A stretch of DNA of 32,024 nt, from positions 1 through 32,024 of the IMG/VR virus record IMGVR_UViG_3300007896_000003, one strand, 5' to 3'. The position numbers and the translations under genes are program-made. The notes below the pieces were generated by a model. The model was not told the origin of the DNA and searched no databases. It saw only the letters and a list, made by a program, of their open reading frames with translations. Origin of the DNA: a virus. Below, in pieces: positions 10,539 to 30,839 of this stretch (positions are counted from its first letter, which is position 1; each line of letters begins with the position of its first letter).

Positions 10539-10539
10539 T

Positions 10540-11447: not shown

Positions 11448-12185
11448 ATGGCACTTAATTTTTCAACAGGTTTACGAAATGCTTTAGCAAGCCAGAGCGC
11501 AACAAGGCATGTTGCTACTTTAACAGCTACAACGATTAGTGCAGAAGATAATGGCGCAAGTCCTGATACTATCAGTGATAGTGGAAATGGTTTTTTAACT
11601 GCTGGATTTATTCCAAACGCATCTATCCTTGCTTATGGATTCACTGGAGGTATGGCTGCTATCCATGGCCCTTTCATTCCATCTGCTGTAACTGCTGGAG
11701 TAATAACAATTCCAACAGGCAGTACGGCTGCTGATGCCGCAGGTGAAAGTGTTACACTTGTTACATTAGTTGGTGGAACTTTTTTTGATATATTTCAACA
11801 TTCAGTGCTTGATATTTATTCCGGTAACCAACCTGCAAATGCTGATACTGTTGAATCAGGGACAAAGCTCGTATCTATAACAAATGCAAGTGGAGCTTTT
11901 TCTGCAGGGGCAGTAACTAATGGCCTTGTTTTAGATGCTTTTTCAGCTGGAACTATTTCAAAAGAACCCACACAGACATGGTCAGGGAATGGGCTTGCAA
12001 CCGGAACAGCCGGATGGGCAAGATTGTATGATAACAATTATACCACAGGCACAAGTACTACTGCAAGAAGACTGGATTTCCGTGTTGCTGTTTCAGGTGC
12101 AGAGCTTAATTTGACGACAACAAGTATAACGGCAGGCTTACCTGTAAGTCTGACTACCTTTAAACTTACACTGCCTAACGCATAA
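11448..12185 (+). CDS. tail-associated beta-sandwich structural protein
   Basis: A 245-residue protein preceded by a perfect AGGAGG. The start MALNFSTGLRNALA and the second half (LDIYSGNQPANADTVESGTKLVSIT...TWSGNGLATGTAGWARLY...ARRLDFRVAVSGAELNLTTTSITAG) match a familiar environmental-phage family found among tail genes. The family copy I recall goes almost directly from the LRNAL helix to the YSGNQPA segment; here roughly 85 residues (TRHVATLTATTIS...) lie between, which may be an inserted beta domain. No enzymatic motif is visible. A role on the tail or its fibres is inferred from position. Confidence 0.5.
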   Translation: MALNFSTGLRNALASQSATRHVATLTATTISAEDNGASPDTISDSGNGFLTAGFIPNASILAYGFTGGMAAIHGPFIPSAVTAGVITIPTGSTAADAAGESVTLVTLVGGTFFDIFQHSVLDIYSGNQPANADTVESGTKLVSITNASGAFSAGAVTNGLVLDAFSAGTISKEPTQTWSGNGLATGTAGWARLYDNNYTTGTSTTARRLDFRVAVSGAELNLTTTSITAGLPVSLTTFKLTLPNA

Positions 12186-12195
12186 GGAGTGTATT

Positions 12196-12555
12196 GTGGC
12201 ATATACAAACACTTTATTGCTGGATTTATTACCAGAGTATATAAAAAATAACACTAATGTTATGCACGTTTGCAGCGCTTTACCTTCTAATATCACAGAA
12301 TTAGCAAGTTATTCTCTTGGCAGTGTGACAATGGGTATTGCTCATTTCAGCAATATAAAAAGCGGAATAACTACAGGGGGCAGGAGAGTATCTGTTTTAG
12401 ATAAAGAAGTCACTATAACAGCTGCAGGGACAATAAAATATGTCGCTCTTGCTTCTACCACTGTCTTATTCCACGTAGAAGCTGCCACTGCCGTAGATGT
12501 AGTAGTTGGTGACGTTTATAATATTAAGGAATGGGATATAGAAAATACCCCATAA
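12196..12555 (+). CDS. small tail-associated protein
   Basis: A 119-residue protein starting at GTG behind AAGGAG. Its layout, a short helix (MAYTNTLLLDLLPEYIKNN), then VMHVCSALPSNITELASYSLG and GGRRVSVLDKEVTITAAGTIKYVALAS, corresponds to a small conserved phage family usually found beside the gene just upstream. It is predicted to be mostly beta. Function is unknown. Its 3' end is followed by AAAGGAG for the next gene. Confidence 0.5.
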   Translation: MAYTNTLLLDLLPEYIKNNTNVMHVCSALPSNITELASYSLGSVTMGIAHFSNIKSGITTGGRRVSVLDKEVTITAAGTIKYVALASTTVLFHVEAATAVDVVVGDVYNIKEWDIENTP

Positions 12556-12572
12556 TAAAGGAGTTTAGAAAC

Positions 12573-13529
12573 ATGAAAATACAAATTCCACATCCAGTTT
12601 CAATCTGGAATTTGGATGTATTTGATAAAAACGGTTTTTTAAAAACATCTTTAAGGGATTGCCACAATGTAGTTACTGATGAAGGCGCAAACGCTTTTTT
12701 AAATTGTATGTTTCATGGTTCTACACAACTTAACCCTTGGTATATTTTGTTGTTTGAGGATGATTATACTCCAATAGTCACAGACACATACGCTGTTCCA
12801 GGCTTTACTGAGTGTACTGCTTATTCTGAAACAGTCAGGCAGACTTTTGTAGAGAGTGCAGCTTCCAGTAGGTCGTTAGATAACATAAGTAATAAGGCGA
12901 CTGTAAATATAAATGGAACAAAAAGCCTTTATGGCGCTGGCCTTGTAAGTGGCGGTGCAGGGGACAATTTAAAAGGTAACACTGACTCTGAAATATTAAT
13001 AGAAGATTGCGAGGATGCCTGGGATGAATCAGTGGATGCAGATGTAACTTCTACTGCTGATGCTGATTGTCAGGTTGGTAGTTCTTCAGCGAAACTTGTT
13101 GTTGCAGCTGCTTGTGCTGCCGGTGATATCCTTGCCACTGAGGTTGTTGCTGTTGACTTAACTAAAGCTGATAAAATCAGGATGTGGTTAAAATGTTCTG
13201 TTGCTACAAACGCTGGCGATCTACAACTACTTCTTGATGATACAGCGCTTTGCGCAAGCCCACTCGAAACTCTTGATGTCCCCGCTGTTTCTGCGAATAC
13301 ATGGACTCAAGTCACAATGACACTTTCAGACCCAACATTACTTTCTACAATTATATCTATAGGGTTAAAATATACTGTTGATATAGGCGCATGTGATATT
13401 TTTATAGATGATGTTAAAGGCATACTTTCAACATCAGATGGTGTTTTGTATGCGGCTGCAAAATTTACAGCAGCAGTGCCAGTTGAGAATTTAGATGTAG
13501 TAAAAATATGGGCAACATTAACAACATAG
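12573..13529 (+). CDS. tail-associated protein with nested beta-sandwich domain (paralogue A)
   Basis: A 318-residue protein. I start at ATG 12573, 8 bases after AAAGGAG; an in-frame ATG at 12531 lies inside the upstream gene without a ribosome site. Residues 1-139 and 286-318 correspond to the next gene's product, sharing WYI-LFEDDYTP-VTDTYAVP-FTE-TAY-E--RQ, G-TK--YGA-L and Y-AAKF/YCAAKA...PVEN-DV-K. Between them, residues about 140-285 form a separate unit beginning ILIEDCEDAW and ending in CDIFIDDVKGI. That pattern (ED/DD-W opening, SSSAKLVVA, AGDLQLLLDD, TWTQVTMTL, ISIGLKYTVDIG) is a jelly-roll carbohydrate-binding or galactose-binding-like domain. Such a domain would be displayed on the tail and may contact host glycans. 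Confidence 0.6.
   Translation: MKIQIPHPVSIWNLDVFDKNGFLKTSLRDCHNVVTDEGANAFLNCMFHGSTQLNPWYILLFEDDYTPIVTDTYAVPGFTECTAYSETVRQTFVESAASSRSLDNISNKATVNINGTKSLYGAGLVSGGAGDNLKGNTDSEILIEDCEDAWDESVDADVTSTADADCQVGSSSAKLVVAAACAAGDILATEVVAVDLTKADKIRMWLKCSVATNAGDLQLLLDDTALCASPLETLDVPAVSANTWTQVTMTLSDPTLLSTIISIGLKYTVDIGACDIFIDDVKGILSTSDGVLYAAAKFTAAVPVENLDVVKIWATLTT
12990..13427 (+). other. nested CBM-like domain insertion
   Basis: This segment encodes about 146 residues that interrupt the paralogous frame between KGNTDS and STSDGVLYAAAKF. The neighbouring gene lacks it at the equivalent point (GDKVAAGAVMYCAAKA). The insertion keeps the reading frame. Its edges have no obvious direct repeats that I could identify, so it is a domain acquisition, not a recent mobile element. 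Confidence 0.6.
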
Positions 13530-13538
13530 GAGGCGATA

Positions 13539-14084
13539 ATGATACACCAATTAGATAATAAAATTATAACACCAAAAAAGCCAGGATATATAAACACAGC
13601 CCAAGGATGGTCAGTATTTGATTTTGAATTATGGAGAGATGGAAAACTTGTTGATACCTGGTTAGCAAACAACGCTACTACCACAGAAGGCTTTAATAAG
13701 ATCCTTAATGTCAACTTTCATGGCGCTGCTGCAATCACAACTTGGTATATAGCTTTATTTGAAGATGACTATACTCCGTTAGTTACTGATACATATGCTG
13801 TCCCAGTATTCACAGAAAGTACAGCATATACAGAAGCTACGAGGCAAGCATGGGTTGAGGACGCTGCTGCTTCTGCTTCTATAACAAACAGTACAAAAGC
13901 AGCTTTTACTATGAATGCCACAAAGAATATTTATGGTGCAGCGTTAATGTCAAATAATACTAAAGGCGATAAAGTTGCTGCTGGTGCAGTTATGTATTGT
14001 GCTGCTAAAGCTGATACAGTCAAGCCTGTTGAAAATGGTGATGTTTTAAAAGTTGGAGTTACAATTAGTTATCAGAATGTTTAA
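13539..14084 (+). CDS. tail-associated protein (paralogue B)
   Basis: A 181-residue protein with AGGAGG before its ATG. It is the shorter partner of the preceding gene, aligned over nearly its whole length, with the shared core W-I-LFEDDYTPLVTDTYAVPVFTESTAYTEATRQAWVEDAAAS. It lacks the inserted beta-sandwich. The N-terminal 20 residues (HQLDNKIITPKKPGYINTA) are specific to this copy and may be the anchor to another tail protein. The pair may form a mixed fibre or be used at different sites. Function is unknown. Confidence 0.55.
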   Translation: MIHQLDNKIITPKKPGYINTAQGWSVFDFELWRDGKLVDTWLANNATTTEGFNKILNVNFHGAAAITTWYIALFEDDYTPLVTDTYAVPVFTESTAYTEATRQAWVEDAAASASITNSTKAAFTMNATKNIYGAALMSNNTKGDKVAAGAVMYCAAKADTVKPVENGDVLKVGVTISYQNV

Positions 14085-14099
14085 CTAAGAGGTATTTTT

Positions 14100-15728
14100 G
14101 TGGCTTGGACTATAAATACAGCGAGTTATGATGGTAAATTATATGATGTTAGTGCTAAGCAGGCTATTACTTCTCCCCAATTTTTATCTGGGGCTGCGTG
14201 GTCGCCAGATGGGGCTAACTTTATTGCTTCGGGGAACACCGCAGCTCCAAATTGGGTACAATACACTACAACCTCGCCATGGGAAATAGATACATTATCT
14301 TTCGCAACTGAGTATAATACCACACATAACACAGATAGTATGTTCCTGAAACCTGACGGTACGTCTATTTTTTTTACTCTGGGTTCCAGTACATATGGGA
14401 AAACTTTTTTATATCAATATGATTTTTCTACCCCGTGGGATATATCTTCTATTACATTTAACCAAAGAATTGATTTAATATCGAGTGTATATAAATCTGG
14501 CCTTTTCTTTAAGCCTGATGGGTTAAAATTCTATTGGTTTGTTAACGGTTTTATAAAACAATATAATTTAACTTCTGCGTGGGATATAACTACGCTTTCT
14601 TATGATACGCAACTTGATGTCTCTGGTTATAGTAGTAACTCTATCTGCTTATTCTTCCATCCCAGTGGAACATATTTTTATATTACAGATTTAAGCCAGC
14701 CAAAAATTTACCAATTTTCAACATCACTGCCTTGGGCGGTTGACACTGGTATCTACAGTAATAAATTTGGTGATTTTACATCAGAGCAACCGTTATTATC
14801 TTATTTTTTCTTTAAGCCTGATGGATTAAAACTTTACGTAGCTGGTGAAAGTCCTAATATTTACCAATACACAATAGAAGATTATGCAACAACTTATTTA
14901 AACATAACCGCTTCTGCAAAAACAACTGCTTCTGTTGACCGTATCGCTGAGAAAAATATTGATTTAACATTAAGTTCAAAGGGTTCGTTTACACTTGATA
15001 CCCCTGACTTTTCATATACAGCAATCTCAGCAAGTGCAGAAAACACAAACTTTGTTAATTTTTATTCTCCTTTCACTTATGGTTTTACAGAGAATATAAC
15101 ATGCACGGATCTTTTTTACGCATCTAATTTGACATCTGGTGTTACTTTTGCCACTACTCCTGCATCTGTGTTTAGTTGTGTAAACTTAACGATGAACGTA
15201 TCAAATAATGCTGAATCAAAAATAGATGTAGCTATGGATATTGTTTATCCTGTGTCTGTTGTTGATTCAATATTCACAGTTTCAAATAAAATAATAACAT
15301 TAGAGGCATCTTCACTTGCAGTATCAGGCACAGTTGATGTTACATTCCCTAAGCTAACATTAGAAGCTCATGGAGGTGGCGCAGCTTCTCTTGTTTGCCC
15401 TGACCTTACTTTATCAGCATCAGGATTTGTCGGGATAGTCGGGACTACTGATGTGATAAACCCATCTTACACATTAGAGGCTAATGGATCGGCTGTCGTA
15501 GGCGGCACATTTGATGAAACGATATCTGATGTATTATTAGAAGCAATCGGGCTTACTGGCTGTATTGGCACGGCTGACGTTACGATGACTGATATCACTT
15601 TAGCTGCAACGGGTGGCTTTACTGTAGAAGGTACGGCAGATGTCACAATGCCAGATGTTAGTTTATATTCAGAGGGTAGGCTTGAGAGTAGATTCTCAAG
15701 TGAAATTCTAAGACATAGCAGGTATTAA
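14100..15728 (+). CDS. beta-propeller tail fibre protein, N-terminal part (broken gene)
   Basis: A 542-residue protein with a GTG start after AAGAGG. Residues about 1-275 contain five repeats built on KPDG-LKFY/FFT...IYQY-FSTPWDI-TLSY, i.e. a beta-propeller. Residues about 280-400 are a beta-rich linker. From about 400 to 530 there are short repeats of 20-23 residues, GTADVTMPD-TL-A-G, typical of a stacked beta fibre stalk. The expected C-terminal domain (MKNIALSQYTNYNFNSFAE...) is missing here and appears 34 bases downstream in another frame, so this ORF looks like the larger part of a frameshifted gene. The fibre would face outward from the tail and may bind the host surface; that is inferred. 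Confidence 0.6.
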   Translation: MAWTINTASYDGKLYDVSAKQAITSPQFLSGAAWSPDGANFIASGNTAAPNWVQYTTTSPWEIDTLSFATEYNTTHNTDSMFLKPDGTSIFFTLGSSTYGKTFLYQYDFSTPWDISSITFNQRIDLISSVYKSGLFFKPDGLKFYWFVNGFIKQYNLTSAWDITTLSYDTQLDVSGYSSNSICLFFHPSGTYFYITDLSQPKIYQFSTSLPWAVDTGIYSNKFGDFTSEQPLLSYFFFKPDGLKLYVAGESPNIYQYTIEDYATTYLNITASAKTTASVDRIAEKNIDLTLSSKGSFTLDTPDFSYTAISASAENTNFVNFYSPFTYGFTENITCTDLFYASNLTSGVTFATTPASVFSCVNLTMNVSNNAESKIDVAMDIVYPVSVVDSIFTVSNKIITLEASSLAVSGTVDVTFPKLTLEAHGGGAASLVCPDLTLSASGFVGIVGTTDVINPSYTLEANGSAVVGGTFDETISDVLLEAIGLTGCIGTADVTMTDITLAATGGFTVEGTADVTMPDVSLYSEGRLESRFSSEILRHSRY

Positions 15729-15762
15729 TGCTGCCAAAAACATACTGGAAGGGACTATTAAT

Positions 15763-16242
15763 ATGGAATATTTGACCTTAGCAATGAACATGAAAAATAT
15801 AGCGTTATCCCAATATACCAATTATAATTTTAATTCCTTTGCTGAAATAGGCGGCAGGTATTTTGGATTTAACTCTGATGGCATTTATGAATTAGACGAA
15901 GCAGATGATGATAATGATACAAATATTGATGCTTTTGCTGAGTTTACAAGAAGTGATTATGGATTATCAAATCAGAAGAAAATGCGCCGAATAATTGTTG
16001 GTTATGAAGCAAGTGGTAGTATACAACTTGTAACAGCCGCAGACGAAGGCAGCTCTGAAACCTATTCGTTGTCACCTACCTTGGCAGGTAATAAGCAAGG
16101 CAGTGGTGTTTTGTGGGGTAAAAGAACACAGAAAGGCAGATATTGGGACATGAAGGTTCAAAATGTAGACGGTTGTGATTTTAGCCTTGATTTCATTGAA
16201 GCCGATTTTATTATTGGAAGTAAAAAACCACAGGGAAGTTAA
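15763..16242 (+). CDS. C-terminal domain of the fibre protein (broken gene)
   Basis: A 159-residue frame starting MEYLTLAMNMKNIALSQYTNYNFNSFAEIGGRYFG. In related phages, as I know the family, this domain follows the GTADVTMPD-type stalk in one polypeptide and ends with KGRYWDMKVQNVDGCDFSLDFIEAD. Reading upstream in the same frame gives DIAGINAAKNILEGTIN before a stop near 15700, which would join naturally to the upstream ORF after one base is gained or lost at about 15700. GGAAGGG lies about 8 bases before the ATG, so separate translation is possible. The domain is probably a beta sandwich with a DDDNDTNID acidic loop. Confidence 0.55.
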   Translation: MEYLTLAMNMKNIALSQYTNYNFNSFAEIGGRYFGFNSDGIYELDEADDDNDTNIDAFAEFTRSDYGLSNQKKMRRIIVGYEASGSIQLVTAADEGSSETYSLSPTLAGNKQGSGVLWGKRTQKGRYWDMKVQNVDGCDFSLDFIEADFIIGSKKPQGS

Positions 16243-16254
16243 AGGAGAAATAAT

Positions 16255-17622
16255 ATGGCTATACAAGTTGATGTTGTTCCACATATGCAATTTGATCCAG
16301 GTGCGAACGCTGCATCCGAGGTTGTATCGTCACAGTTTACTACTGCGCAGGAATATGCCTCTAATTCGATGACAACGGCAGAGTATTATTTAGAGACTCT
16401 TGTAAATACCTTTACAAGTATAAATACTCCGGCAATTGATATTGATTATAATTTTCAAGAAGTTGAGATTGAAAGTACATTGACAACTTTACGACCTACT
16501 CCGCCAACTGATGCTGAGATGACACCTGAAACTTTTGAACAGCCGACAAGACCTACATTTGATACAATTACAATTCCAAGTGTTACTATCCCTGTATATG
16601 ATATTGTTGATCCTGCAACTGACTTTTCTTATCAAGATAGTGGATATTCAAGTACACTTAATACAGTCTTGAAGGCTTTAATGGCAACATATATTAATGA
16701 TGGTGGTACTGGTCTTGGTGAAGATGTTGAAGATGCTTTATGGGCAAGAGCAAGAGCAAGAACAGAATTAGAAAATGAACGGATGTATGACGAAGTTGAT
16801 ACTTATTATGCTGTAAGAGGTCACGAAACTCCGCCAGGCGCACATGCAGGACAAATATTAAGAGTTAATGCCGAAGTAAATAGAAATAACGAGCAGATGA
16901 ATTATGAAATTATGATAGAGCAGGCGAGGCTTGCTCATGAACATACTAAATTCAATATTACATCTGCTCTTGCTCTTGAAGGGCAAGAAAAAGAATTATA
17001 TAATAATATTCAAAACAGGTTATTAGAAGCTGCTAAGACATTAGTTGATATAGTTTTAACTACATATAAAACTAAGGTTGATGGTTACATATCAAAACTA
17101 CAAGCTGCGCAGATGGAATTAGATGTTAATAAAACGCAAGCTGAAGTTATTATGGAGTCAAACAAAAATCTTGTTGCAATATATCAAAGCGATCTTGAAG
17201 CATATAAGATTAATGTAAGTACAGAGCTTGGTATTATAGAATCTATTGCTAAAGTTTATAGTTATAGAGTAGCTGGGTATGAATCTGATGCAAAGGCCGA
17301 AGCAACAAAATTAGACGCTCAGATAGAATTATATAAAGCAAAAATTTCTCAAGCTAATAATCAAACAATGCTATCTTTAAAAGAAGCAGAATTAACATTG
17401 CAAGCATATTTAGGTCAGATGGGATTAAGTGTTGAAGGTGCGAAAGCTCTTGCAAATGTATCGGCTCAATTAGCGGCATCAGCATTAAGTTCTGTAAACG
17501 CATCTGCAAGTATCGGGGATTCTATAAGTAGAGGCCTTTCAAAATCTCATAATCATACTGAAAGTTTAGGGAATAGTGCGTCTCTTAGTGAAACACATCA
17601 ATATCCACATGCGGAGTCATAA
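16255..17622 (+). CDS. long helical virion structural protein
   Basis: A 455-residue protein behind AAAGGAG. The N-terminal 120 residues are Thr/Pro-rich and extended. The segment DALWARARARTELEN (from about residue 160) with YAVRGHETPPGAHAGQIL is a conserved mark of a podovirus-type structural family. Residues about 200-420 are almost wholly helical with heptads (MNYEIMIEQARLAHEH, QAAQMELDVNKTQAEVIM, YKAKISQANNQTML), forming long coiled coils. The last 30 residues are Ser/Asn/His rich. It probably forms a trimeric tail appendage or internal helical rod. The next gene starts on the base after its stop codon. Confidence 0.6.
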   Translation: MAIQVDVVPHMQFDPGANAASEVVSSQFTTAQEYASNSMTTAEYYLETLVNTFTSINTPAIDIDYNFQEVEIESTLTTLRPTPPTDAEMTPETFEQPTRPTFDTITIPSVTIPVYDIVDPATDFSYQDSGYSSTLNTVLKALMATYINDGGTGLGEDVEDALWARARARTELENERMYDEVDTYYAVRGHETPPGAHAGQILRVNAEVNRNNEQMNYEIMIEQARLAHEHTKFNITSALALEGQEKELYNNIQNRLLEAAKTLVDIVLTTYKTKVDGYISKLQAAQMELDVNKTQAEVIMESNKNLVAIYQSDLEAYKINVSTELGIIESIAKVYSYRVAGYESDAKAEATKLDAQIELYKAKISQANNQTMLSLKEAELTLQAYLGQMGLSVEGAKALANVSAQLAASALSSVNASASIGDSISRGLSKSHNHTESLGNSASLSETHQYPHAES

Positions 17623-19878
17623 ATGCCTGTTGCTTTTAAATACATAGGAGATGAACAAGCTGCAAAGAATTTAAGGCGGTTTGGACAGGTACAACTTGAC
17701 ATTCTGATTAATGCTATGAGCTATCAAGGCTTACAGCAAAATCAGCGTAATGTTAAATTTAGTGACGGTACTATTATTTCGTGTAAAAGAGTTATGAACC
17801 TTGACACTGTAACAATTTACGTTCCTACTCAGATTATTCCAGTAGAGGAAAGAGTAATAACAGAAGTCACTTATTGCTGGTGCAGCAGGTACTTTTCAGA
17901 AGGTACTATTATTGAAGTTATTAATCCTGATTCTAAGGAAGGTGAATATCCTTCATCCATGTTTTCAACTCAATTAAGTTTACACTATCAATCTGAATAT
18001 GGCTCTGCACAATATTATGGATGGATATTTAATATTTGGACTGATAACGCTGCGGCCTATACAGGTATAAGGTATAAAGTAAAGGTTTGTAGAGGCATTG
18101 AAACAAAGAATATTATTTGCGGTTCTTTAAGTATCGCACCACATTCAGTTGGAGATAAAGTTATATTGTTTTGTGCTGGTAATGGAAATTTATTTGAACG
18201 GCATCATTATAATTTTTTACCATTTAAATTTAAAGAAAGCCCTTGTTACGGCAAAATGAATTCTTGTTTTTCTTGTAATACCATATTAAGAGATTTAACA
18301 AAAGACCATGGAATAGATATTGAGGATGCGCTTGAGGGAACTTATGTTATTACAGATTTGAGTATTACAGATATTGCCTCACCAAATGAAGATATGGTTG
18401 ATGTTTTAACATATAAATATATTAGCACAGTAGATCTTGAAAAAGATTGCTTAACTACAGGTATCCCGTATTCTGAAAAAATAACATCGTTCCTTGGAGC
18501 TATTGATTTTACAAATAATACTGTGCAAATAAAACTTAATACAGATGAGGTTGTTACAGCAAATATACATTTTAATTGTCAAGCTCCATATGCTTATAAA
18601 GATAGAGCAAGAATGTTGACAATGATTAAAATTTATCCAGTCTTAAATTATCTTGCTGAGTCTTACGGTATTGGTCGTAGAAGATATCTTGTCTTGAAAA
18701 GTAAAGATAATGGCCAAGATATATATACGATAATTGGGTATACATTTAGTATGCCTGCAAGATGCCCTGTAAGAATGCTATCTTTAAATTTTCTTCATTC
18801 TGACAAATTTGGTTATAGTTATGACGAGACATCACGGTTAATATGGGACTTGGAAAATGATGTTGAAGTATTAAATACATCTACTGAAACAGCGTGCTTA
18901 GTGAAGGATGGCGTGAAGCGATTACAAGAAATAGGAGTCAGCAGTGATGTGCATCAGACTTTATATGAAACCACAGGAATAGTGGGAGACTCTAATAACT
19001 CATGGACAAAGAGAATCGAAGGCTATTATGAAACAAGAGATACCGCAAGTATTCGTGTCCCATCAAAAATTTCTGATGATACTTATAGAACTATCAGAAA
19101 AGACCGTGCGTCAGATGTAACTTATTTTTGGATACCAGTTAAAGAAAAATATATATCTAATTATCAATCTTTTGAAGAATCAAACAAAACCACAAATACA
19201 TATAATAAAGTTTCTTCCTGCGATATGCGCCCTATATGGTGGTTCGCTGCATGGTATATAGATTATAGCAAAGAAGTTTATTCTATTCCAGGAGATAAAT
19301 ATTCTTTACCTAACTACCAATATAGTGAACCTTTCCCTATAACTTTTCAAGGTGAAGAAAGCACGATCTATAAAGATAATGAAATTAAAGAGGAAACAGT
19401 TACCTCATATTATGATAAAGATAAAATTTTAATTTTTGAAAATAATTCAATAATAGAAAAAATAAACGTAGGATATGGCTTAGAAGAATTTGCGGATGAC
19501 TATATCACACAAACTAATGAATTGTTAAGCCATACTTTTCCTTCATCTTATAGCACTTGCGATAACAGTGTTTATTTATTTGATATATATGTTACTCGCA
19601 ATTATAAACATCTCTATTCATGGTCAGACCCATATTGGAAAATGTACCCAGTTATAATAGAAGCTGATACATATAATGCTTATGTAATCGGTTACAAGCA
19701 AGAAGGTATAACAGATTTTTCTAAATTCAAATTAAATGAGTGTGAAAAATTTAGCACAGGTGCTATAATAGATAGAATAAAAGAAATGGCTATAGATTGG
19801 CAAACAGATATTGCGGCGTTAGGGTCAAGAAGCAGTTTTATATATTCGCTTGATGGATTCGGCATACCAAACAATTAA
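17623..19878 (+). CDS. large virion-associated protein of unknown function
   Basis: A 751-residue protein with no domain I can name beyond its N-terminus, where LRRFGQVQLDILINAMSYQGLQQNQRNVKFSDGTIISCKRV resembles a small phage domain of helices followed by a FSDGT strand pair. The rest is rich in Tyr, Ile, Ser and Asp and contains many Cys residues (YCWCSRYF, CYGKMNSCFSCNT, CPVR), unusual for a fibre. A CxxC-like pair near NSCFSCNT could be a metal site. The gene starts immediately after the previous stop (TAAATG), so translation is coupled. It could be a receptor-binding or baseplate-like protein; the evidence is position only. Codon use looks more AT-rich than in the head genes. Confidence 0.45.
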   Translation: MPVAFKYIGDEQAAKNLRRFGQVQLDILINAMSYQGLQQNQRNVKFSDGTIISCKRVMNLDTVTIYVPTQIIPVEERVITEVTYCWCSRYFSEGTIIEVINPDSKEGEYPSSMFSTQLSLHYQSEYGSAQYYGWIFNIWTDNAAAYTGIRYKVKVCRGIETKNIICGSLSIAPHSVGDKVILFCAGNGNLFERHHYNFLPFKFKESPCYGKMNSCFSCNTILRDLTKDHGIDIEDALEGTYVITDLSITDIASPNEDMVDVLTYKYISTVDLEKDCLTTGIPYSEKITSFLGAIDFTNNTVQIKLNTDEVVTANIHFNCQAPYAYKDRARMLTMIKIYPVLNYLAESYGIGRRRYLVLKSKDNGQDIYTIIGYTFSMPARCPVRMLSLNFLHSDKFGYSYDETSRLIWDLENDVEVLNTSTETACLVKDGVKRLQEIGVSSDVHQTLYETTGIVGDSNNSWTKRIEGYYETRDTASIRVPSKISDDTYRTIRKDRASDVTYFWIPVKEKYISNYQSFEESNKTTNTYNKVSSCDMRPIWWFAAWYIDYSKEVYSIPGDKYSLPNYQYSEPFPITFQGEESTIYKDNEIKEETVTSYYDKDKILIFENNSIIEKINVGYGLEEFADDYITQTNELLSHTFPSSYSTCDNSVYLFDIYVTRNYKHLYSWSDPYWKMYPVIIEADTYNAYVIGYKQEGITDFSKFKLNECEKFSTGAIIDRIKEMAIDWQTDIAALGSRSSFIYSLDGFGIPNN

Positions 19879-20501: not shown

Positions 20502-23500
20502 ATGCCAATACTTGCAGATTATTACAACGAAAATAAAGATTATTACAAAGGGGCTTCTCTTAATGATGTAGCCCAAGATGTTTTTTCCAGAGCAGAAAAA
20601 CCAGATGGGCAAACTTTTGAACAATGGTCAGAAATAACCGGCGTTAATAAAGAGTTAAAAACGGAACAGCCCCCCGAACCTGTACGCAGAAACCTCGGCA
20701 CAGCACCGCAGGAAGATACCACTAACCCACTCTTAGCTATTCCTCGGTCTGGTCTTGTCGCTGCGTCTGATATAGTTGGCGCTGGCGGCGGGCTTCTTAG
20801 GCATTTTGGAGAAACAAGTGAAAGGAAACAACAAGAGATTAAAGACGCTTTTGGCACACTCTTAAGAGATGGAGCAGCTAAACCACAAACAACACAGCCT
20901 TTACGTCCTGAACCAGAGCCAACTACTTTATTTGGCATGGCAAAAAAAGGTATGGGCTATACAGTAAAAAAAGGCGGGGAAGGTTTAAAATATTTAAGAG
21001 ATACAGAAGCGGCTAAATGGTATTCTTCTGTTATGGCTCAACAAAGGCTAAAGGAAGCCAGCAGTTCAAAAACAAAAAGTCCAAATCCAATGTATAACCT
21101 TGTGGGGGATATTTTTAATATAGGCTCTGATGCTTTAAAAAATCTTGGTGAGTCAGATATTAGCAAGTGGAACGCAGATTTAAAAGGCAATAATACTTTT
21201 AGGAATGAAGTTACCCCTCAAATTCAACGGTTAATAAAAAAAGGTGATGATAAATCTCTTAAGACAGCATTAAATTTATTAGAAAAAGGCGAAGGGTGGG
21301 TAGAACGATCTAAACTCAAAGAAACAGGAATGAATAAAATAGCTGATTTTGGCACAGGTATTCATGAAGCAACTCAAAAATTCAGTGATTATGTAAGACC
21401 TGTAACAAGAGAAGGCTCGGCTTTAAGGTATGTCACAGGTGCGATAGAGTCTGTTATCCCGTCACTTCTCATAGGTACGGGGGTGACGGTTTTGACAAAA
21501 AACCCTCAGTTGGGTTTAGCGTCAATGTTCCCACAAGTTTATGGTAGCACTTACGCAGCAGAAAGGGCAGAAGGGAAAAGCACGACAGAAGCACGTATGA
21601 CAGGCGTTGTAAATGCTTCGCTTGAAGTATTAAGTGAGGGTGTCCCTTTAGGTATAATAACAAAAAAAGGTGGTAAATTTGTAACAAAAACGATTAAAGC
21701 AGGAACAGCAGAAGGTATCCAGGAATTTCTTAACGAGGCGATGCAAATTGCTTATGCTGAAGGCATTATCGGAGATGATACTCCGCCGGAGGAGATAGGC
21801 CAAAGATTAATTGATGCTGGTATTATGGGTGCTATAGGTGGTAGTGGAACATCTATGATGTTTGATGTGGCGAGCAAATTAAATAAAAAACAAAATATAG
21901 ACCCTGATAAAACAGATGATGACAATAACCCTGACAACCCTAATTCTTTCCAAAATAGTTATAAGGGAAAACAGGCGGTTGAACAGAAAAAAGCAATAAT
22001 AGATACTATAATCGAAGCAGACGATATCGCTAATTTTGAAAAAGTTCTTAGTAGTAGGGTGCTTGATGAAGCGGATATTAAAAAAATAAAAAAACAAGCT
22101 GGCCCCAATTTATCTTCTGCAATAGATGAGATAATTGAAACTGGTAAAAAACAATCCAACTTTGCTTCTATGATATCAGAAAGTATTGAAACTGGTACTG
22201 ACATCAACGGAGTTGAGTTCTCACAAGAAAAAGCAGAAACACTTATACAAATGGGCACAGAAAACGGATTGTTGACTGAAACCCTTTTAAATGAGCTTAA
22301 AACAGCATACCCACAAATAGCCGAGGTGGTAGATAATTTACTCCAGGATATGACACAAACAGAACAGGCAGAGCAAGGTGAGTTTGTACCAAGAGGTGAG
22401 CCAGATACAGCCGCCCAAGCAGTTGAGGTGTTTGAGGCACAACCCTCGCAATCACCTGCGGCTGATTCATACCAGTTTTTTGAAGACAAAGGGATAGTAG
22501 ATTTAAGCGAAAATGAGAAACAATTTGAAAAAAATCCCTTAGATGCTGAGAGCAATACAGATTATCTCGATAAATACAATGCAGCTTATTTCGATAAATA
22601 CATAAAAAAAGCGAATTTAACAGAAACTACTAATGAACTTACGGTGGCTAATCAGCCGAGCTTAGTGCCAGAAGAGCAAGTTGCTACTGGACAAGAGGTT
22701 GTCGAGCCAAGCGCATTACCTCAAACCAGAAATATAGAAACAATAAAAGCCGACATCGCACAAGCAGAAGAAGGCCAGACATCAGCTTTATACAGGGAAC
22801 TTGCTGATGCCATGGACGCTACAAAAGAGCAAGGCGGGAAAGAAGTTGTTAAAGAAATAAGCAAACCTAAACAAGATACCGTCCAGCTTACCGAGCAACC
22901 AATCGCTAAAACTAAAGAAGAAGCACCACATAAAAAACATGAGGTAACGCTTAAAAGATATTTAGAAGAAATTGAGTTAGCTACACCAGGGAAAAGGATA
23001 AGAACCACTGATGATAAAGCATATGGGCCAGTAGAAGAAACATGGGCAAGCCAGCCATCAACCTTCCCGGAATGGTTTAAGAATAACGGTTGGTCTAAAG
23101 CGGAAGCTATTAAGGCTATAAAAAAAGGTCTTGAAGGCCAGGAGTTTAAAGATACAAGGAGCGGTAAGGGACAGGGGAGTATCTGGCAAGCTGCTCTTGA
23201 CGCTGCTGAGAATGAACGTTCACAAGGGTTAAACGATTTTAGCGCATACTTAGAAAAAAACCCTGAGTCTGTGGCAAATATTACCGCTGAAGAATACCAA
23301 GAAGTTTTAGCTTTTAATGAAGCGCGGGATACCCCAAACGATAAGATTATAGACGCGGCATTGGTATATCGTAAAGACGTACAAGAAGAGTTAAAAAAAG
23401 AATTTAATAAAAAAACACCTATACCAAAAGATAAAGACTTTGTTGAGGCTCCAAAAGAGACTCTTATAAGCGCAGAAGAACAGAAAGAAGCTAAAAAGTT

Positions 23501-26500
23501 ATTTAAAAAAGAAGAACAGCCTATCAAGGCAGAACGCAGAGCAATAGATACTCTTGAGGCCAACAAAGCAGAAACAAAATATCAGGAAGAAATAAGCAGC
23601 TACAATGCTAAACTTGATGAATTAGAAAAAACAGGCAAATGGACTGACGGAAAAGGGACACACACAATAGATGAATTAAAGTTCCCACCAGTGCCAGAAG
23701 GTGTGAGAGATGAATGGTTAGACAAAAAGATAAGTGAAACTAAACGTCAAAAAATTGGCGATATGACTAAACAGGATTTTATTAAAGCAATATTAACAGA
23801 TGACCTTACCGGCCTTGGAAACAAAAGAGCTTATGACAGATCGAAGAAAAAGAAAGTACAAATAAGTATTGATATCGATAATTTAAAAACGGTTAATGAT
23901 AGGCTTGGTCATGCAGCCGGTGATGAACTTATAGTCTTTTTTAGTAAGGCGTTAATAGCAAGTGAGTACAATACTGCTGATATAGCCAGACTTGGCGGTG
24001 ACGAGTTTGTAATCCAAACTAATGATGCAGAAAATATTGACAAGCATATAAATAAAGTATACAATTATATTAAAGCTAATGAGTTAGTTTTTAGCGGTGT
24101 CCAAGTAAAAGTTAGTTTTTCATCAGGAAAGGGGGAAACATATTATGAAGCAGAAAAAAGACTCCAGAGAGACAAGACAAGAAGAACAATCAATGGGGAG
24201 CGAAAACTTGTCCCAAAAGCAGAGGGTAAGGGGCGGGTTCTCAATGACGGGAACAGGAATATACGAGGGGATGACACTGGACGAAATGTGCGACAAGAAT
24301 CCAAACGGAGTATTGACAATAAACGGGAAGGACTTCCCGGTACTAAGATAGCGTATGATAAAAAAAATGCAATTAACCCTCCAAAGAACAGACGGGTTGC
24401 TGACTTACTTAGACCAAATGCTGCCGAGCTTATATTCGCAGAAAAAATAAAACAATATGAGGCAGCCCTTCAAGAACTTGAAAACAACATCCCTGAACAT
24501 GGCAAAGATGCTTTTTGGACAGACGAAAACGGTAACAAACTTTCAATAAAAGATTTAATCCTCCCCAAAAAAGAGATCGTTGAAAACACAGAAGTAAGAG
24601 ACGAGTTTTTAGACGGCCTTGCCGCAGAAGAGAAAGCAACAAAACTTGACCAACTATCAAGAGAAGAGCTTACTGAACTTCTTTATACCGACCCTCTTAC
24701 CGGGTTAAAATCAAAAAGAGCTTACGAAGATTCACAGAAAAAGAAAATACAAATCAGCCTTGATGCTGACGGGCTGAAATATGTTAATGATGTTTACGGC
24801 CATGAAGCAGGGAACGACTTTTTAAGATCATGGGCTAAAGCTCTCAAAGAAGCGTCAGGGCTTGATGTTAAAGTTATTAATAGAGTCGGTGGGGATGAAA
24901 TCATCGTCCAGGCAGACAACTTAAAACAAGCCAGAGAAGCCGTTAAGAAAACAAGAGAGTATCTTGATAAACACAGGCTCAAACTTCCAACACTTGATGG
25001 CTCTGAAAAGTTTATGATTATAAAATTCAGCCATGGCATCGGTACTACTTTATTTGAGGCTGAACAGAAATTAAGACATGAGAAAATAGAACGGTTCTTA
25101 TCAGGCGACAGGGTTGCTCGTGGTGAAACCCCGGATATAGAGGGTGAGAGTTATGTTGAAGGGATACAAGAGCCAACGGCGGGAATAAAAATTGAAGATG
25201 TTGGGGAAAAGCTTGGTGGCGCAAGAAAAGATATTGCAAAACAGATTAAGTCAACGATAGCAGATGATGGCATAGCGTCTCATACATTAAGTGAAATATG
25301 GCCTAAACCCAAAGACTTAGATAATAGTTTTGAGTCTGCCTTTGCTTTTGTTGCAAGGGCTGAGATACCAAGTAAACCTCGTGTAAAATCCAAGGTAAAA
25401 CGGTGGGCTGAGAAAGTGAAGGAGTTGCGGGGGCTTACAGAAAAGTTACTATCTGGCACAATAGATAAAAAATCATTAATAGAGGCCGTTAGAAGGCTTG
25501 GCCGCACTACATACCTTGAAGGGTTTTTGGATAAAGTTACAATTTTTGAAAAAATAGATAAAAATCTTTGGGATAAAATTAAAAGAATAAACTTAGCTGC
25601 AAAAGCCTATACTTTTGATAAAGATAATAACAAAATAAAATCTCCGTATTTAAGTGTTAATAATAAATTATATAACTACAAGGAAAGCTTTGAAGAAGTT
25701 GTCACAGATATTGAAAAAGATTTAAAGCAAGCTGTTGATAAACCTAAAGAAACAATAAAATTTGAAGTCAGGGGAAGTATCGCAAACGGTTATTTTATTA
25801 ACAAAAAAGGGGACGTTGAATATAGGAATTTGAAAAAGTTTAAAACTTCTAAAGAAGCTTTTGAATATAGAGACAATAATATTACTGACCTCATAGAAGA
25901 ATGGGAAAAAGTAAAAAAAAGAGACAATATCCATAAAGCAGATGTAAGAAATAAAATAAATCGTGCCCGTACAGGCAAAGACCACAGGGGGGGGAAGGAT
26001 GTCGGGGCTGAAGAATTTAGAGAAGCCTTTGGGTTTAGAGGTGTTGAATTTGGGTTATGGGTAAAACAAGGGAAGAATACTAAGGAACGGCAAGGAATGA
26101 TTAATGCGGCCTATGATGCGTTATTAGACCTTTCCGCTATATTAAACATACCACCAAAAGCCATTTCTTTTAACGGTCATTTAGGGTTAGGTTTTGGCTC
26201 AAGAGGGCATGGGAGTGCGGCGGCGCATTTTGAACCAGGAAAATTTGTTATTAATTTGACAAAAACAAAAGGGGCTGGATCTCTCGCCCATGAGTGGTTT
26301 CATGCTTTAGATAATTATTTTCAAAAAGAAAGAGGGGCGGGGGTATCTCGTGAAAATAATTATATAACTTATCGGCCTGAAACTGTTTATAAAAATATAA
26401 AAACAGGTATGGAAATTACTCAAAGAAATTATGAATTTATTAAAACAAATAAAGAAGAATGGGTAAGAGTTGAGGGTGTTAGGCCAGAGGTTGAAATAAA

Positions 26501-29500
26501 ATTCTCTGAATTAGTAAAAGTGCTTAATGGCTCCGATATGTATAAAAGGTCTCGTAGAATTGATGCTGGGAAAAAGAACGGGTATTGGTCAAGAATTATA
26601 GAAAGAGCTGCAAGAGCTTTTGAAAATTATATCATTGGTGAAATGGCTGCCGCAGATTATAACAATGACTATTTGGCAAACGTTATGCAAATAGAAAATT
26701 TTCAGAAAAACATGGAAAGATACCCCTATCTTACTACCGAGGAGTTGCCCCCTATTAAAAAAGCTTTTGATGAAATTTTTAGTACACTTAAAACTAAAAA
26801 AACAGATGCCGGGGTTAAACTGTTTTCAACTAAACCCACAAAATCTCAAACAATAACAAGAAAAGACATAAAACAAATCTTCACCCGCATGGAAAACGTT
26901 GCAGTAGGCAAAGACAAAGATGGTAACATCTGGTTTAAGCCTGTCGGCCGTGAGAAAATAACAATACATGAAGTTGACCATATAAACGGTTACATTAACA
27001 CATCAGCGGGCAGGATTCCTGTCGGCAGTTTTCTAAGAACTGATATTGAAGTAAAGACAGGTGGCAAAGGCGCAACGGCTGATACAGAAACATTATGGCA
27101 TGAACTTACGCATTACCTTGAGACTAATGGCATCCTATCTAAAAATAATATCAACACTATTAACGAGGCGATAAGAGAGTCTGATGGTGTATCTGAACCA
27201 ACAGCAGAACATAGGGCTGATTATTTAGGCAGTAGATTAGCCACATGGCAAAAAGAAAAGATGAGTGTTAGATTAGTACTTAAAAAAGTAGTCAACTTTA
27301 TAACTACTATAAGGGATTTTCTTTCAAAGTCTCAACATCAGGTTAGAACTGTCCAAGATATCCTTGGGGATATATACTCTGGTAAAATTTTAAAGGGGAA
27401 GAAAGAAGCTTCGGGTGTTAACGAGTTTGCACAGGCTATAAGTTTTTCTTTAAAGAAAGCTGCCAAAGCTGTTACGGATAATCCTAATTTCAAAAAATGG
27501 TTTGGTGATTCAAAAGTTTTGGATGAGGATGGTTCACCAAAAATTATGTATCATGGGACTGATAGTAATTTTACTGTATTTGATCTCAGACGAACAGAGG
27601 GAGATTCTTTCTTTTTTACAGATGAAAGAAATAAAGCAAAGCTTTACGGTGATAAAATTGTTCCTGTATACCTGTCATTGCAGAACCCTTTAGAATATGA
27701 TTATACTGGGTATGACGATGGCGAATTGCATAGAGATGTAATAAAATATAAGGCAGAAGGGGAATATGATGGAATAATCGCATTAAATATAAGCGATGGG
27801 GAAAAAGTTTATAACCAATACGTAGCCTTCAACCCAACCCAAATAAAATCCATTTACAACACTGGCGCTTTCGATCCGTCTAACCCAGACATAAGATACC
27901 AGATGGCAGGGCAAGAAGATACCAAGCAATTCCAGACCAAGCCGGACAGCACAAAAGAATGGGCTGAGGAAATAATGAAAACATACGCTGAGCGCCAGCA
28001 GAAAAAAGACGCATGGCTTATGAGAGAAAGAAGTGTAGAAGAAAAAGCAGAAAGGCCAACATTAAAAAAGACAACTGAATTGGCAAAGAGATTTAACCTC
28101 TTCCCTTCAGAAGCAGCAAGAGCAATAATAACACGCCATTTCAACGATGCTATGTGGTGGGTTGTTGATAAAAACAGACCTATTGCTACAGTGCAAAGTT
28201 TTTTAGATAAAGTTACCGACAATATAAATGTTTTTTTGAAAGAAACACAACGGCCTAAAAGAACTGCTGCGAGAATACAGACAATGTGGGCTGAGGAGAT
28301 AAAGCCGTTAATTGAAAAAATGGCTAAGTATAATATAAACGTTGAAGATTTAGAAGCGTATAAACATGCACTCCATGCACAAGAGGCTAACAACGCACTT
28401 AAAAGGTCGAACGCTAAGTTGCAAGTTGAAAAAATTATTAAAGTTTTAGAAGCAAGTAAAGAAAAGCAAAAAGTAGATGATATTAGAAAATTTACCAAAG
28501 GCTTAAAAACGCCTAACGAATGGTTTAGCGCATTAAATGATATTATAACTAAATATGGCAGTGAAAAAGTTTTGCGAAAAACTATTACATCATGGAATGA
28601 TTTTTCATCAAAACCATCAGGCATGACAAATGAAGAAGCAAGAGATATATTACAAGAGTATAAAGGTGATAAAAAAATAAAAGAACTTGGGCAGATGGTG
28701 GACTCTTTAAATAAAAATTCTTTAGAACTTCTTTATAACTCTGGTCAAATACCGTTAGAAGAATATGAGGCAATTTTAAATAAGTATGATCATTATGTTC
28801 CATTATACAGAGAAGGTTTTGATGATAGGCTTTTCGGAGCTGCAAAAGGGTTGAAGCCTTCAGGTAGAGCGATAAAAACAAGAAGTGGGTCTACGAGAAA
28901 TGTTGTTGATATTATTGCTCACTCTATAACTAATTATGAAAAAGCTATAACTATAGCGGAAAAAGCACATTCACAAAGAGCGTTATTGGGGTTGATACAG
29001 GCCAACCCAGAGTCAGATATAATAAGCATTGGGGCTGTAAAGAAATCATCACGGCATGACGCAAATGGTAATTTAAGACTATACCCTGATATGTTTGATG
29101 TCCAGCCTAATGAGATGCGCTTAATGGTTGATGGAGAGCAGTATATTGTCACAGTACAAACAGATAATGCGGATGCTATGCTTATGATGCGGACATTAAA
29201 AGCAGAAGATAGCATGACCGGTCCTATTATAAACCAACTCGCTAAAGTAAATCGCTTTCTTGCTAAAATAAATACCACATGGTCACCTGAGTTTATTGTC
29301 TCAAACTTTATCCGTGATATCCAAACTGCTGGGATTAATATTAAAGACACAGGGGTAAAAGGTAAAAGTATGTTGGGTGGGGCAAGAAAAGCATGGGGCG
29401 CAATTTACGCGATAGAAAGAGGCAATCCTAAAGGGACAGAGCTTGAGGCTTACTATGAACGGTTTAAGGCAGCAGGTGGGAAAATTGGTTGGGCTGACGT

Positions 29501-30839
29501 ACATAGCTCGGTTGAAAATCTTGGTAAAAAAATTAAAACTGAAATAAGTTTAGCCAAGGGTGAGCGCCCCATATTAAAAACAATTATCGCTGGCGGGCAA
29601 TTAATAGAAGATATGAATACATCTATTGAGAATGGCATTAGACTTCATGTTTTTAAATTAGCCGTTGAGCAAGGCAAGACAGATGAAAGAGCTGCTCAAA
29701 TAGCTTCTGACTTAACTGTTGATTTTACAAAAAAAGGAGCAGCGGGGCCGGTTATAAACTCTTTATATTTATTCGCTAATGCAGGTATACAGGGGTCATA
29801 CAGAATATTTAGAGCAGGGGCTAAGTCCCCAGCAGTAAGAAAACATATGGCCGGAATAATAGGAGCGAGTTTTTTAATCGGGGTGTTAAACGCTTTTGCG
29901 GGTGGGGTAGATGATGATGGCGAGGATTATTATAACAAAATAGATAATTATGTCCGTGAGCGTAATATGATTATTATGCTGCCAAATACAAAAGGCAAAT
30001 ATATAAAAATACCTCTCCCGTGGGGGTATAATGTATTTTGGAATTTTGGGGCAGAAATATCAAGGGCTTTTTCGCAGAAAAATTACGACCCATTGGCAAG
30101 CGCAGGGCGTGTAGCTTCAACCTTCTTTAATGCCTTTAACCCTGTGGCCGCTGGCACGTTAATGCAAACATTATCTCCGACTATTGCTGACCCTTTTGTG
30201 CAAATAGCAGAAAATAAAAATTGGTTTGGTGGTGAGTTGATGCCTGGTGTAAATAAATTTGACAGAACACCAGAACCTGACTCACAAAGATACTGGAAAT
30301 CAGCAAGCTCGCCATCACAATGGATAACCTCACAATTAAACGATATTACAGGAGGTGATAAAGTTAAAGCAGGTAAGCTTGACTTTTCTCCTGAGACACT
30401 TGATTTATTTGTGGATACTATCGGTGGCTCAGCTTTTAAGTTTATTAAAGATACTTTTGATATCCCCATTAAAGCCATCCATGATGAAGAGATTAAAATG
30501 CACAAAATACCATTTGTTCGCAAAGTGTTTAGTGAAAAATCAGAATGGGCGGACTCAAGGATTTTTTATGAAAACATAAATGACGTGCTTGTCGCTAAGG
30601 AAAGGCTAAAAGCTTATAGAGGGACTATCGAATACCCTAAATTATCAAAAGAGTTAAGGCCACAATTATCTTTAACAGGGTTTGCGTCTGATAGTGAAAG
30701 GAGGCTAAAACAATGGAGGCAAAGATTAAAACAAGCTGAAATCGCAGGCAATAAAACAGCTATAAAGAATATAAACGAAAATATCAAAAGAATTTATGTT
30801 ACTTTTAATAAAGTTTACAATAAAAATATAAAGGAGTAA
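20502..30839 (+). CDS. giant polyvalent internal protein with tandem GGDEF, zincin, ART and LPD domains
   Basis: This 3445-residue protein belongs to the phage polyvalent class, thought to be ejected into the host with the DNA. Domains in order (residues): Pro-rich N-terminus; hydrophobic Gly/Ala stretch about 310-420; acidic linkers to about 1000; GGDEF unit 1 about 1034-1228 (D1124/D1126, LGGDEF with GGDEF at 1165-1169); GGDEF unit 2 about 1319-1531 (D1421, GGDEI 1463-1467); GARKD motif 1572-1577; LPD1-like zincin about 1843-1950 with HEWFH 1930-1934; second zincin with HELTH 2200-2204 and a later EHRAD; ADP-ribosyltransferase-like about 2325-2467 with YHGT 2350-2353 and the SNPDIRY end; LPD38-like C-terminus about 2890-3230 (SNFIRDIQTA at 2933) with a hydrophobic helix near 3116. 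The ribosome site is weak: only GGG about 10 bases upstream. Domain calls are from motifs, not from a search. Confidence 0.8.
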   Translation: MPILADYYNENKDYYKGASLNDVAQDVFSRAEKPDGQTFEQWSEITGVNKELKTEQPPEPVRRNLGTAPQEDTTNPLLAIPRSGLVAASDIVGAGGGLLRHFGETSERKQQEIKDAFGTLLRDGAAKPQTTQPLRPEPEPTTLFGMAKKGMGYTVKKGGEGLKYLRDTEAAKWYSSVMAQQRLKEASSSKTKSPNPMYNLVGDIFNIGSDALKNLGESDISKWNADLKGNNTFRNEVTPQIQRLIKKGDDKSLKTALNLLEKGEGWVERSKLKETGMNKIADFGTGIHEATQKFSDYVRPVTREGSALRYVTGAIESVIPSLLIGTGVTVLTKNPQLGLASMFPQVYGSTYAAERAEGKSTTEARMTGVVNASLEVLSEGVPLGIITKKGGKFVTKTIKAGTAEGIQEFLNEAMQIAYAEGIIGDDTPPEEIGQRLIDAGIMGAIGGSGTSMMFDVASKLNKKQNIDPDKTDDDNNPDNPNSFQNSYKGKQAVEQKKAIIDTIIEADDIANFEKVLSSRVLDEADIKKIKKQAGPNLSSAIDEIIETGKKQSNFASMISESIETGTDINGVEFSQEKAETLIQMGTENGLLTETLLNELKTAYPQIAEVVDNLLQDMTQTEQAEQGEFVPRGEPDTAAQAVEVFEAQPSQSPAADSYQFFEDKGIVDLSENEKQFEKNPLDAESNTDYLDKYNAAYFDKYIKKANLTETTNELTVANQPSLVPEEQVATGQEVVEPSALPQTRNIETIKADIAQAEEGQTSALYRELADAMDATKEQGGKEVVKEISKPKQDTVQLTEQPIAKTKEEAPHKKHEVTLKRYLEEIELATPGKRIRTTDDKAYGPVEETWASQPSTFPEWFKNNGWSKAEAIKAIKKGLEGQEFKDTRSGKGQGSIWQAALDAAENERSQGLNDFSAYLEKNPESVANITAEEYQEVLAFNEARDTPNDKIIDAALVYRKDVQEELKKEFNKKTPIPKDKDFVEAPKETLISAEEQKEAKKLFKKEEQPIKAERRAIDTLEANKAETKYQEEISSYNAKLDELEKTGKWTDGKGTHTIDELKFPPVPEGVRDEWLDKKISETKRQKIGDMTKQDFIKAILTDDLTGLGNKRAYDRSKKKKVQISIDIDNLKTVNDRLGHAAGDELIVFFSKALIASEYNTADIARLGGDEFVIQTNDAENIDKHINKVYNYIKANELVFSGVQVKVSFSSGKGETYYEAEKRLQRDKTRRTINGERKLVPKAEGKGRVLNDGNRNIRGDDTGRNVRQESKRSIDNKREGLPGTKIAYDKKNAINPPKNRRVADLLRPNAAELIFAEKIKQYEAALQELENNIPEHGKDAFWTDENGNKLSIKDLILPKKEIVENTEVRDEFLDGLAAEEKATKLDQLSREELTELLYTDPLTGLKSKRAYEDSQKKKIQISLDADGLKYVNDVYGHEAGNDFLRSWAKALKEASGLDVKVINRVGGDEIIVQADNLKQAREAVKKTREYLDKHRLKLPTLDGSEKFMIIKFSHGIGTTLFEAEQKLRHEKIERFLSGDRVARGETPDIEGESYVEGIQEPTAGIKIEDVGEKLGGARKDIAKQIKSTIADDGIASHTLSEIWPKPKDLDNSFESAFAFVARAEIPSKPRVKSKVKRWAEKVKELRGLTEKLLSGTIDKKSLIEAVRRLGRTTYLEGFLDKVTIFEKIDKNLWDKIKRINLAAKAYTFDKDNNKIKSPYLSVNNKLYNYKESFEEVVTDIEKDLKQAVDKPKETIKFEVRGSIANGYFINKKGDVEYRNLKKFKTSKEAFEYRDNNITDLIEEWEKVKKRDNIHKADVRNKINRARTGKDHRGGKDVGAEEFREAFGFRGVEFGLWVKQGKNTKERQGMINAAYDALLDLSAILNIPPKAISFNGHLGLGFGSRGHGSAAAHFEPGKFVINLTKTKGAGSLAHEWFHALDNYFQKERGAGVSRENNYITYRPETVYKNIKTGMEITQRNYEFIKTNKEEWVRVEGVRPEVEIKFSELVKVLNGSDMYKRSRRIDAGKKNGYWSRIIERAARAFENYIIGEMAAADYNNDYLANVMQIENFQKNMERYPYLTTEELPPIKKAFDEIFSTLKTKKTDAGVKLFSTKPTKSQTITRKDIKQIFTRMENVAVGKDKDGNIWFKPVGREKITIHEVDHINGYINTSAGRIPVGSFLRTDIEVKTGGKGATADTETLWHELTHYLETNGILSKNNINTINEAIRESDGVSEPTAEHRADYLGSRLATWQKEKMSVRLVLKKVVNFITTIRDFLSKSQHQVRTVQDILGDIYSGKILKGKKEASGVNEFAQAISFSLKKAAKAVTDNPNFKKWFGDSKVLDEDGSPKIMYHGTDSNFTVFDLRRTEGDSFFFTDERNKAKLYGDKIVPVYLSLQNPLEYDYTGYDDGELHRDVIKYKAEGEYDGIIALNISDGEKVYNQYVAFNPTQIKSIYNTGAFDPSNPDIRYQMAGQEDTKQFQTKPDSTKEWAEEIMKTYAERQQKKDAWLMRERSVEEKAERPTLKKTTELAKRFNLFPSEAARAIITRHFNDAMWWVVDKNRPIATVQSFLDKVTDNINVFLKETQRPKRTAARIQTMWAEEIKPLIEKMAKYNINVEDLEAYKHALHAQEANNALKRSNAKLQVEKIIKVLEASKEKQKVDDIRKFTKGLKTPNEWFSALNDIITKYGSEKVLRKTITSWNDFSSKPSGMTNEEARDILQEYKGDKKIKELGQMVDSLNKNSLELLYNSGQIPLEEYEAILNKYDHYVPLYREGFDDRLFGAAKGLKPSGRAIKTRSGSTRNVVDIIAHSITNYEKAITIAEKAHSQRALLGLIQANPESDIISIGAVKKSSRHDANGNLRLYPDMFDVQPNEMRLMVDGEQYIVTVQTDNADAMLMMRTLKAEDSMTGPIINQLAKVNRFLAKINTTWSPEFIVSNFIRDIQTAGINIKDTGVKGKSMLGGARKAWGAIYAIERGNPKGTELEAYYERFKAAGGKIGWADVHSSVENLGKKIKTEISLAKGERPILKTIIAGGQLIEDMNTSIENGIRLHVFKLAVEQGKTDERAAQIASDLTVDFTKKGAAGPVINSLYLFANAGIQGSYRIFRAGAKSPAVRKHMAGIIGASFLIGVLNAFAGGVDDDGEDYYNKIDNYVRERNMIIMLPNTKGKYIKIPLPWGYNVFWNFGAEISRAFSQKNYDPLASAGRVASTFFNAFNPVAAGTLMQTLSPTIADPFVQIAENKNWFGGELMPGVNKFDRTPEPDSQRYWKSASSPSQWITSQLNDITGGDKVKAGKLDFSPETLDLFVDTIGGSAFKFIKDTFDIPIKAIHDEEIKMHKIPFVRKVFSEKSEWADSRIFYENINDVLVAKERLKAYRGTIEYPKLSKELRPQLSLTGFASDSERRLKQWRQRLKQAEIAGNKTAIKNINENIKRIYVTFNKVYNKNIKE
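23601..24185 (+). repeat. GGDEF unit 1 of an intragenic tandem duplication
   Basis: Encodes residues 1034-1228 of the giant protein: YNAKLDELEKTGKWTDGKG-THTIDEL, then DLTGLGNKRAY, then IDIDNLKTVNDRLGHAAGD, then ARLGGDEF, then YYEAEKRLQ. It is diverged from unit 2 but keeps the same order and spacing. Asp1124, Asn1132, Asp1141 and GGDEF 1165-1169 match the PleD-type metal and guanine positions. No RxxD inhibitory site is present before the motif. Confidence 0.75.
24456..25095 (+). repeat. GGDEF unit 2 of an intragenic tandem duplication
   Basis: Encodes residues 1319-1531: YEAALQELENN...FWTDENGNKLSIKDL, then DPLTGLKSKRAY, then LDADGLKYVNDVYGHEAGND, then NRVGGDEI, then LFEAEQKLR. The motif-to-motif offset from unit 1 is 298 residues. 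Catalytic Asp1421 and the Glu of GGDEI are kept. Asn1438 replaces the Asp that contacts guanine in c-di-GMP synthases. Confidence 0.75.

Follow-up and report, generated by a model that had tools for sequence, protein, structure and literature searches.

GGDEF domains are bacterial enzyme domains that produce the signal c-di-GMP. Their occurrence in polyvalent phage proteins was reported in 2017 in a study whose available text describes them as 'not very widespread' and proposes that they interfere with cyclic-nucleotide signalling (PMC5512222), and since it was published there, the idea of an injected GGDEF is not new. A precedent for a giant packaged protein is provided by DarB of phage P1, a 250-kDa protein that is packaged in the phage head (PMC9024508), and in phage YuA the GGDEF protein gp44 is annotated with a 'putative role in host cell conversion'. 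The locus investigated in this study is contained in a window that comprises a whole IMG/VR virus record of 32,024 bases, which is probably a fragment. It encodes a giant protein with two GGDEF units in tandem (Table 1), which we regard, with about even confidence, as catalytically competent members of a compact, phage-specific lineage that form part of the cargo of a polyvalent virion protein.

Table 1. Coordinates of features in the window.
Feature	Position	Strand	Basis
Large terminase, portal, major head protein, head closure Hc3, structural proteins	689..19878	+	PHROGs
Polyvalent protein, 3445 aa, carrying both GGDEF units	20502..30839	+	ORF and Pfam
Duplicated module copy 1, ~235 aa, residues 1012-1246	23535..24239	+	Local alignment
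GGDEF unit 1, residues 1083-1236	23748..24209	+	Pfam, AlphaFold, PDB fold matches
Duplicated module copy 2, residues 1297-1552	24390..25157	+	Local alignment; tree sisters
GGDEF unit 2, residues 1381-1545	24642..25136	+	Pfam, AlphaFold, PDB fold matches
LPD5 domain	25590..26027	+	Pfam E 1.1e-15
LPD1 domain	26562..26798	+	Pfam E 9.3e-16
ART-PolyVal ADP-ribosyltransferase domain	27522..27860	+	Pfam E 2.2e-19
Conserved C-terminal core, residues 2460-3443	27879..30830	+	Relatives without GGDEF; phrog_616
LPD38 domain	29925..30518	+	Pfam E 2.4e-41

The giant protein unites both GGDEF domains with LPD5, LPD1, ART-PolyVal and LPD38 domains in one chain, as detected with Pfam, and thus shows the combination of several unrelated effector domains with LPD domains that characterizes polyvalent proteins. 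Its gene is placed just after the virion genes, in the late position that is equally typical of such proteins. In four related loci (L021, L022, L049 and L078), the giant gene is found a few genes away from DNA-ejection, tail-fibre or virion genes, and in the neighbourhood of the giant gene of L019 an amidase was the only match. An earlier note, made from the DNA alone, had predicted ejection of the protein together with the phage genome, and the carrier is indeed of the type that is thought to be injected, as judged from its polyvalent domains, the adjoining virion genes and the proximity of its relatives to DNA-ejection genes. The chain also contains two HEXXH motifs (HEWFH and HELTH, at residues 1930 and 2200; window positions 26289-27113), whose sequence suggests zincin-like metallopeptidase sites that could cleave the giant protein into pieces. 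In the preceding structural region, the large terminase is encoded by two ORFs that overlap (689-1438 and 1432-2469) and that both match terminase families; the gene may be naturally split, or its parts may be separated by a frameshift or by an error in sequencing. A gene for a small FmdB-like zinc-ribbon protein (5588-5983) separates the portal gene from that of the major head protein, and two adjacent genes (12531-14084) that both match phrog_8123, a family of unknown function, form a tandem pair among the structural genes.

The C-terminal core of the protein is 55-67% identical to its counterparts in three loci (L003-L005) over about 950-1000 residues, and no GGDEF is present in the records of these loci. 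The same C-terminal scaffold is found with a single GGDEF in L078. The occurrence of this scaffold with two, one or no GGDEF thus identifies the GGDEF module as exchangeable cargo. In L003, which contains the nearest relative of the core, the large protein is split (L003:4648-12538) into ORFs at 4648-7656 and 8216-12538. A polyvalent pyrophosphatase (InPase) domain was detected in 15 of the 59 giant proteins with a GGDEF (L013-L059). A link between both domains, by which InPase would remove the by-product of the cyclase, was considered and rejected: only 2 of 80 InPase-bearing loci contain a GGDEF, and the association is therefore not specific.

PF00990 matches the 3445-residue protein in two stretches with a total of 92 bits, and each unit on its own exceeds the curated cut-off of 23.8 (unit 1: E 7.9e-17, 55.9 bits, 23796-24140; unit 2: E 2.9e-14, 47.7 bits, 24687-25049), in agreement with the tandem arrangement described in the earlier note. 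The positions that had been assigned to unit 1 (D1124, N1132, D1141 and the GGDEF motif starting at 1165) are all exact in the translated ORF, and their spacing of 8/17/41 is, as claimed, identical to that of PleD, whose numbering we take to be D327, N335, D344 and GGEEF at 368. With K1129, K1225 and R1228 in addition to these residues and the motif at 1165-1169, unit 1 holds the full PleD set for catalysis and GTP binding, comprising metal, phosphate and guanine residues. In unit 2 (D1421, N1429, N1438, GGDEI at 1463-1467, K1528 and R1531; spacing 8/17/42), the binding set is complete except for N1438, which replaces the base-reading Asp and which had not been flagged before. It had equally been missed that both units are compact, with a short stretch leading from NKRAY to the first Asp. 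The nine residues ahead of the motif read YNTADIARL in unit 1 and LDVKVINRV in unit 2, and by inspection neither unit contains the inhibitory RxxD five residues upstream of the motif, as had been proposed.

AlphaFold models of the single units, based on alignments of 30 window and locus sequences, show a mean pLDDT of 87.4 for unit 1 and 89.3 for unit 2, with values above 95 in the core. When compared to the PDB with Foldseek, both retrieve diguanylate cyclases (SiaD, DgcR, PleD and WspR) with a probability of 1.00 and best E-values of 2.7e-9 (unit 1) and 9.4e-9 (unit 2). These confident models and their best matches support the GGDEF fold and, together with the residues described above, bear out the presence of an active site in both units. 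In a viral structure library, the top-ranking named match is a protein of Bordetella phage CN1 that contains a GGDEF. Sequence searches of the PDB returned diguanylate cyclases for both units and, with weaker scores, also a small number of de novo designed TIM barrels for unit 2.

The duplication extends beyond the GGDEF domain, a feature that had escaped the earlier note. Local alignment of the two module copies yields a score of 366, and because the sequences preceding the two GGDEFs can also be aligned with each other (88 compared to 27.7 +/- 4.9 in shuffles), the repeated entity is the whole module of about 235 residues. Units 1 and 2 share 37% identity and, in a tree whose bootstrap had not fully settled, they are placed as sisters (99/94) on long branches inside the clade of embedded copies, thus pointing to an old internal duplication rather than two acquisitions. 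Two GGDEF copies are found in the window protein only, which is one of 59 giants, some of them incomplete at contig ends.

The units belong to a lineage that is widespread in phages. Whereas a scan of viral contigs with the single proteins of units 1 and 2 gave no matches, a scan of IMG/VR with an alignment of both units and the proteins of YuA (gp44), CN1 and PC1 identified 69 loci. Together, the IMG/VR loci, the window and phage records contain the domain in 74 ORFs, which encode 15 small proteins and 59 giants (including the window), most of them 1400-6000 residues long and a few ending at contig edges. The lineage is thus present in 58 giant phage proteins besides that of the window and, in the form of standalone genes, in YuA-like phages. 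All 75 lineage units retain the first Asp, Lys and Asn, GDE of the motif is kept in 74 of 74, and the Lys and Arg of the final helix in 73 and 65 of the 75. The first Gly of the motif is mostly replaced by Ser, making SGDEF the usual form, and the domain is followed by a conserved tail (KxxRExxGxRAxRGExPP). The near-invariance of catalytic residues despite long branches indicates selection for catalysis. The distance from the start motif to the first Asp has a median of 16 residues in viral hits, some of whose contigs were counted twice in two overlapping scans, compared to 24 in bacterial hits. RxxD was detected by the same script in 1 of 72 lineage units and in 11 of 33 bacterial GGDEFs, and the loss of the I-site is, on this motif count, a trait of the whole lineage. 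In the same tree, with its bootstrap not fully settled, the embedded copies group in a clade of their own (97/91) and standalone members are found elsewhere. Among contigs of metagenome-assembled genomes, the lineage was found on a few small ones (L082, L084 and L086 among them). The remaining genome-contig matches, for the most part, and those to human-faecal phages (L011 and L012) are by their spacing or context ordinary bacterial cyclases and were excluded from the lineage. In Pseudomonas phage BL8, an open GGDEF frame (L010:3905-4444) has no annotation and is overlapped by a CDS that was called as 'anti-restriction' in a different frame.

In the mechanism that we envisage, the protein would be packaged with the ejection apparatus and enter the cell with the DNA. 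Two GGDEFs, either of the same or of neighbouring chains, would then meet face to face and could convert two GTP to c-di-GMP at the active site defined by sequence and predicted fold. With no inhibitory site, the product would not stop the reaction, which would result in a pulse of c-di-GMP at the start of infection that might, more speculatively, shift motility, surface state or metabolism, or swamp nucleotide-based defence. Since bacterial STING defences are triggered by c-di-GMP, as described in a previous study (PMC8748872), the molecule is not simply phage-protective and its effect would depend on the host. With respect to SGDEF, the prevalent motif of the lineage, ECA3270 is cited as an active example (PMC3974145), but a serine variant of VCA0965 has lost activity and SGDEF is thus not always active (PMC3974145); the window units carry GGDEF and GGDEI, not SGDEF. 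A more far-reaching proposal, which we consider unlikely, is a virion-borne single-chain dinucleotide cyclase, whose tethered pair would be active on entry without dimerisation or feedback and whose unit 2 would have drifted in its base choice, with particles delivering a preset signal that is possibly not plain c-di-GMP.

Other interpretations have to be weighed against this mechanism. The least improbable among them, though still improbable, assumes an active cyclase that operates late in infection or in the lysogen and that is not delivered by the virion. Such a role would suit the standalone members, whose genes belong to the non-structural part of YuA-like genomes, several of them beside an anti-restriction gene, and it is consistent with the increased biofilm of bacteria lysogenic for a Bordetella phage that carries a gene of this kind, although this is an association only (PMC8471281). 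The window copy, in contrast, is fused to LPD38 and ART modules downstream of virion genes, and the separate clade of embedded copies resides in giant genes beside DNA-ejection genes. Slightly less probable is a pair that binds nucleotides without being an enzyme, as sponge or receptor for GTP or c-di-GMP or with a role in the assembly of the giant protein. GGDEFs acting as receptors or sponges exist in bacteria, and with N1438 and GGDEI unit 2 is off the consensus. However, unit 1 keeps all metal, phosphate and base residues, which are near-invariant across the lineage, and in GGDEFs of the receptor type it is usually the active site that is lost and the I-site that persists, which is the reverse of what is found here.

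We assign a still somewhat lower likelihood to a product other than c-di-GMP, where unit 1 would use GTP and a relaxed unit 2 would lead to cGAMP or a mixed or linear dinucleotide. The base is set by the position facing its Watson-Crick edge, where a Ser distinguishes the cGAMP-making Hypr enzymes (PMC6456294), and a tandem would allow the two sites to diverge. The Ser or Thr expected of a Hypr enzyme at this position is replaced by Asp in unit 1 and Asn in unit 2, and Asp, the expected reader of guanine, is found in 68 of the 75 lineage units. An Asn at the base-reading site occurs in a minority of the lineage (6 of 75), and its presence in unit 2 leaves room for an altered base choice. Finally, the low identity between the two units and their long branches could be signs of a decayed or accidental similarity that lacks a biochemical function, but this is very improbable in light of the HMM E-values, the uninterrupted frame, the preserved active sites and the confident folds.

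The interpretation as competent cyclases on an injected carrier places the pair in relation to several described systems. It shares with the GGDEFs of Iyer et al. 2017 (for example that of the Acetonema longum prophage protein WP_004096050.1) the location in a very large phage protein that combines many domains, ART and further effectors among them, the proposed injection and the same functional guess, a likeness that is based on their description (PMC5512222), and the available text of that study does not mention a tandem pair, a compact lineage, its tail or the loss of the I-site (PMC5512222). A search of the accessible literature returned no biochemical study of the phage GGDEF lineage. What our work adds is the recognition of this compact lineage as large and coherent, with a conserved catalytic set and without an I-site, as well as its division into embedded and standalone members and the tandem form. 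With PleD, WspR and SiaD, the window units share the fold, the first Asp, the Asn, GG[DE]E and the Lys and Arg of the final helix, and they differ in being compact, in the absence of I-site and sensor domain and in their phage-specific tail. The giants of E. coli podophages such as vB_EcoP_phi296 (phrog_616) resemble the window protein in the C-terminal ~740 residues at about 30% identity but carry other N-terminal cargo. YuA gp44 and its relatives in Yuavirus and Vojvodinavirus (Bordetella phage CN1, Pseudomonas phage PC1; PHROG 5594) belong to the same lineage with the same tail and are 36-42% identical to unit 2, yet they are standalone proteins of about 150 residues with SGDEF or AGDEF motifs that keep the Asp and fall elsewhere in the tree. 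Whether phages inject a second-messenger synthase can now be tested directly, given the 58 further giants that contain the domain, the standalone members from phages amenable to culture and the defined set of residues. It is known that cyclic nucleotides can be degraded or sequestered by phages, and a large phage lineage that apparently makes one, with proteins presumably injected as infection starts, would constitute the opposite move.
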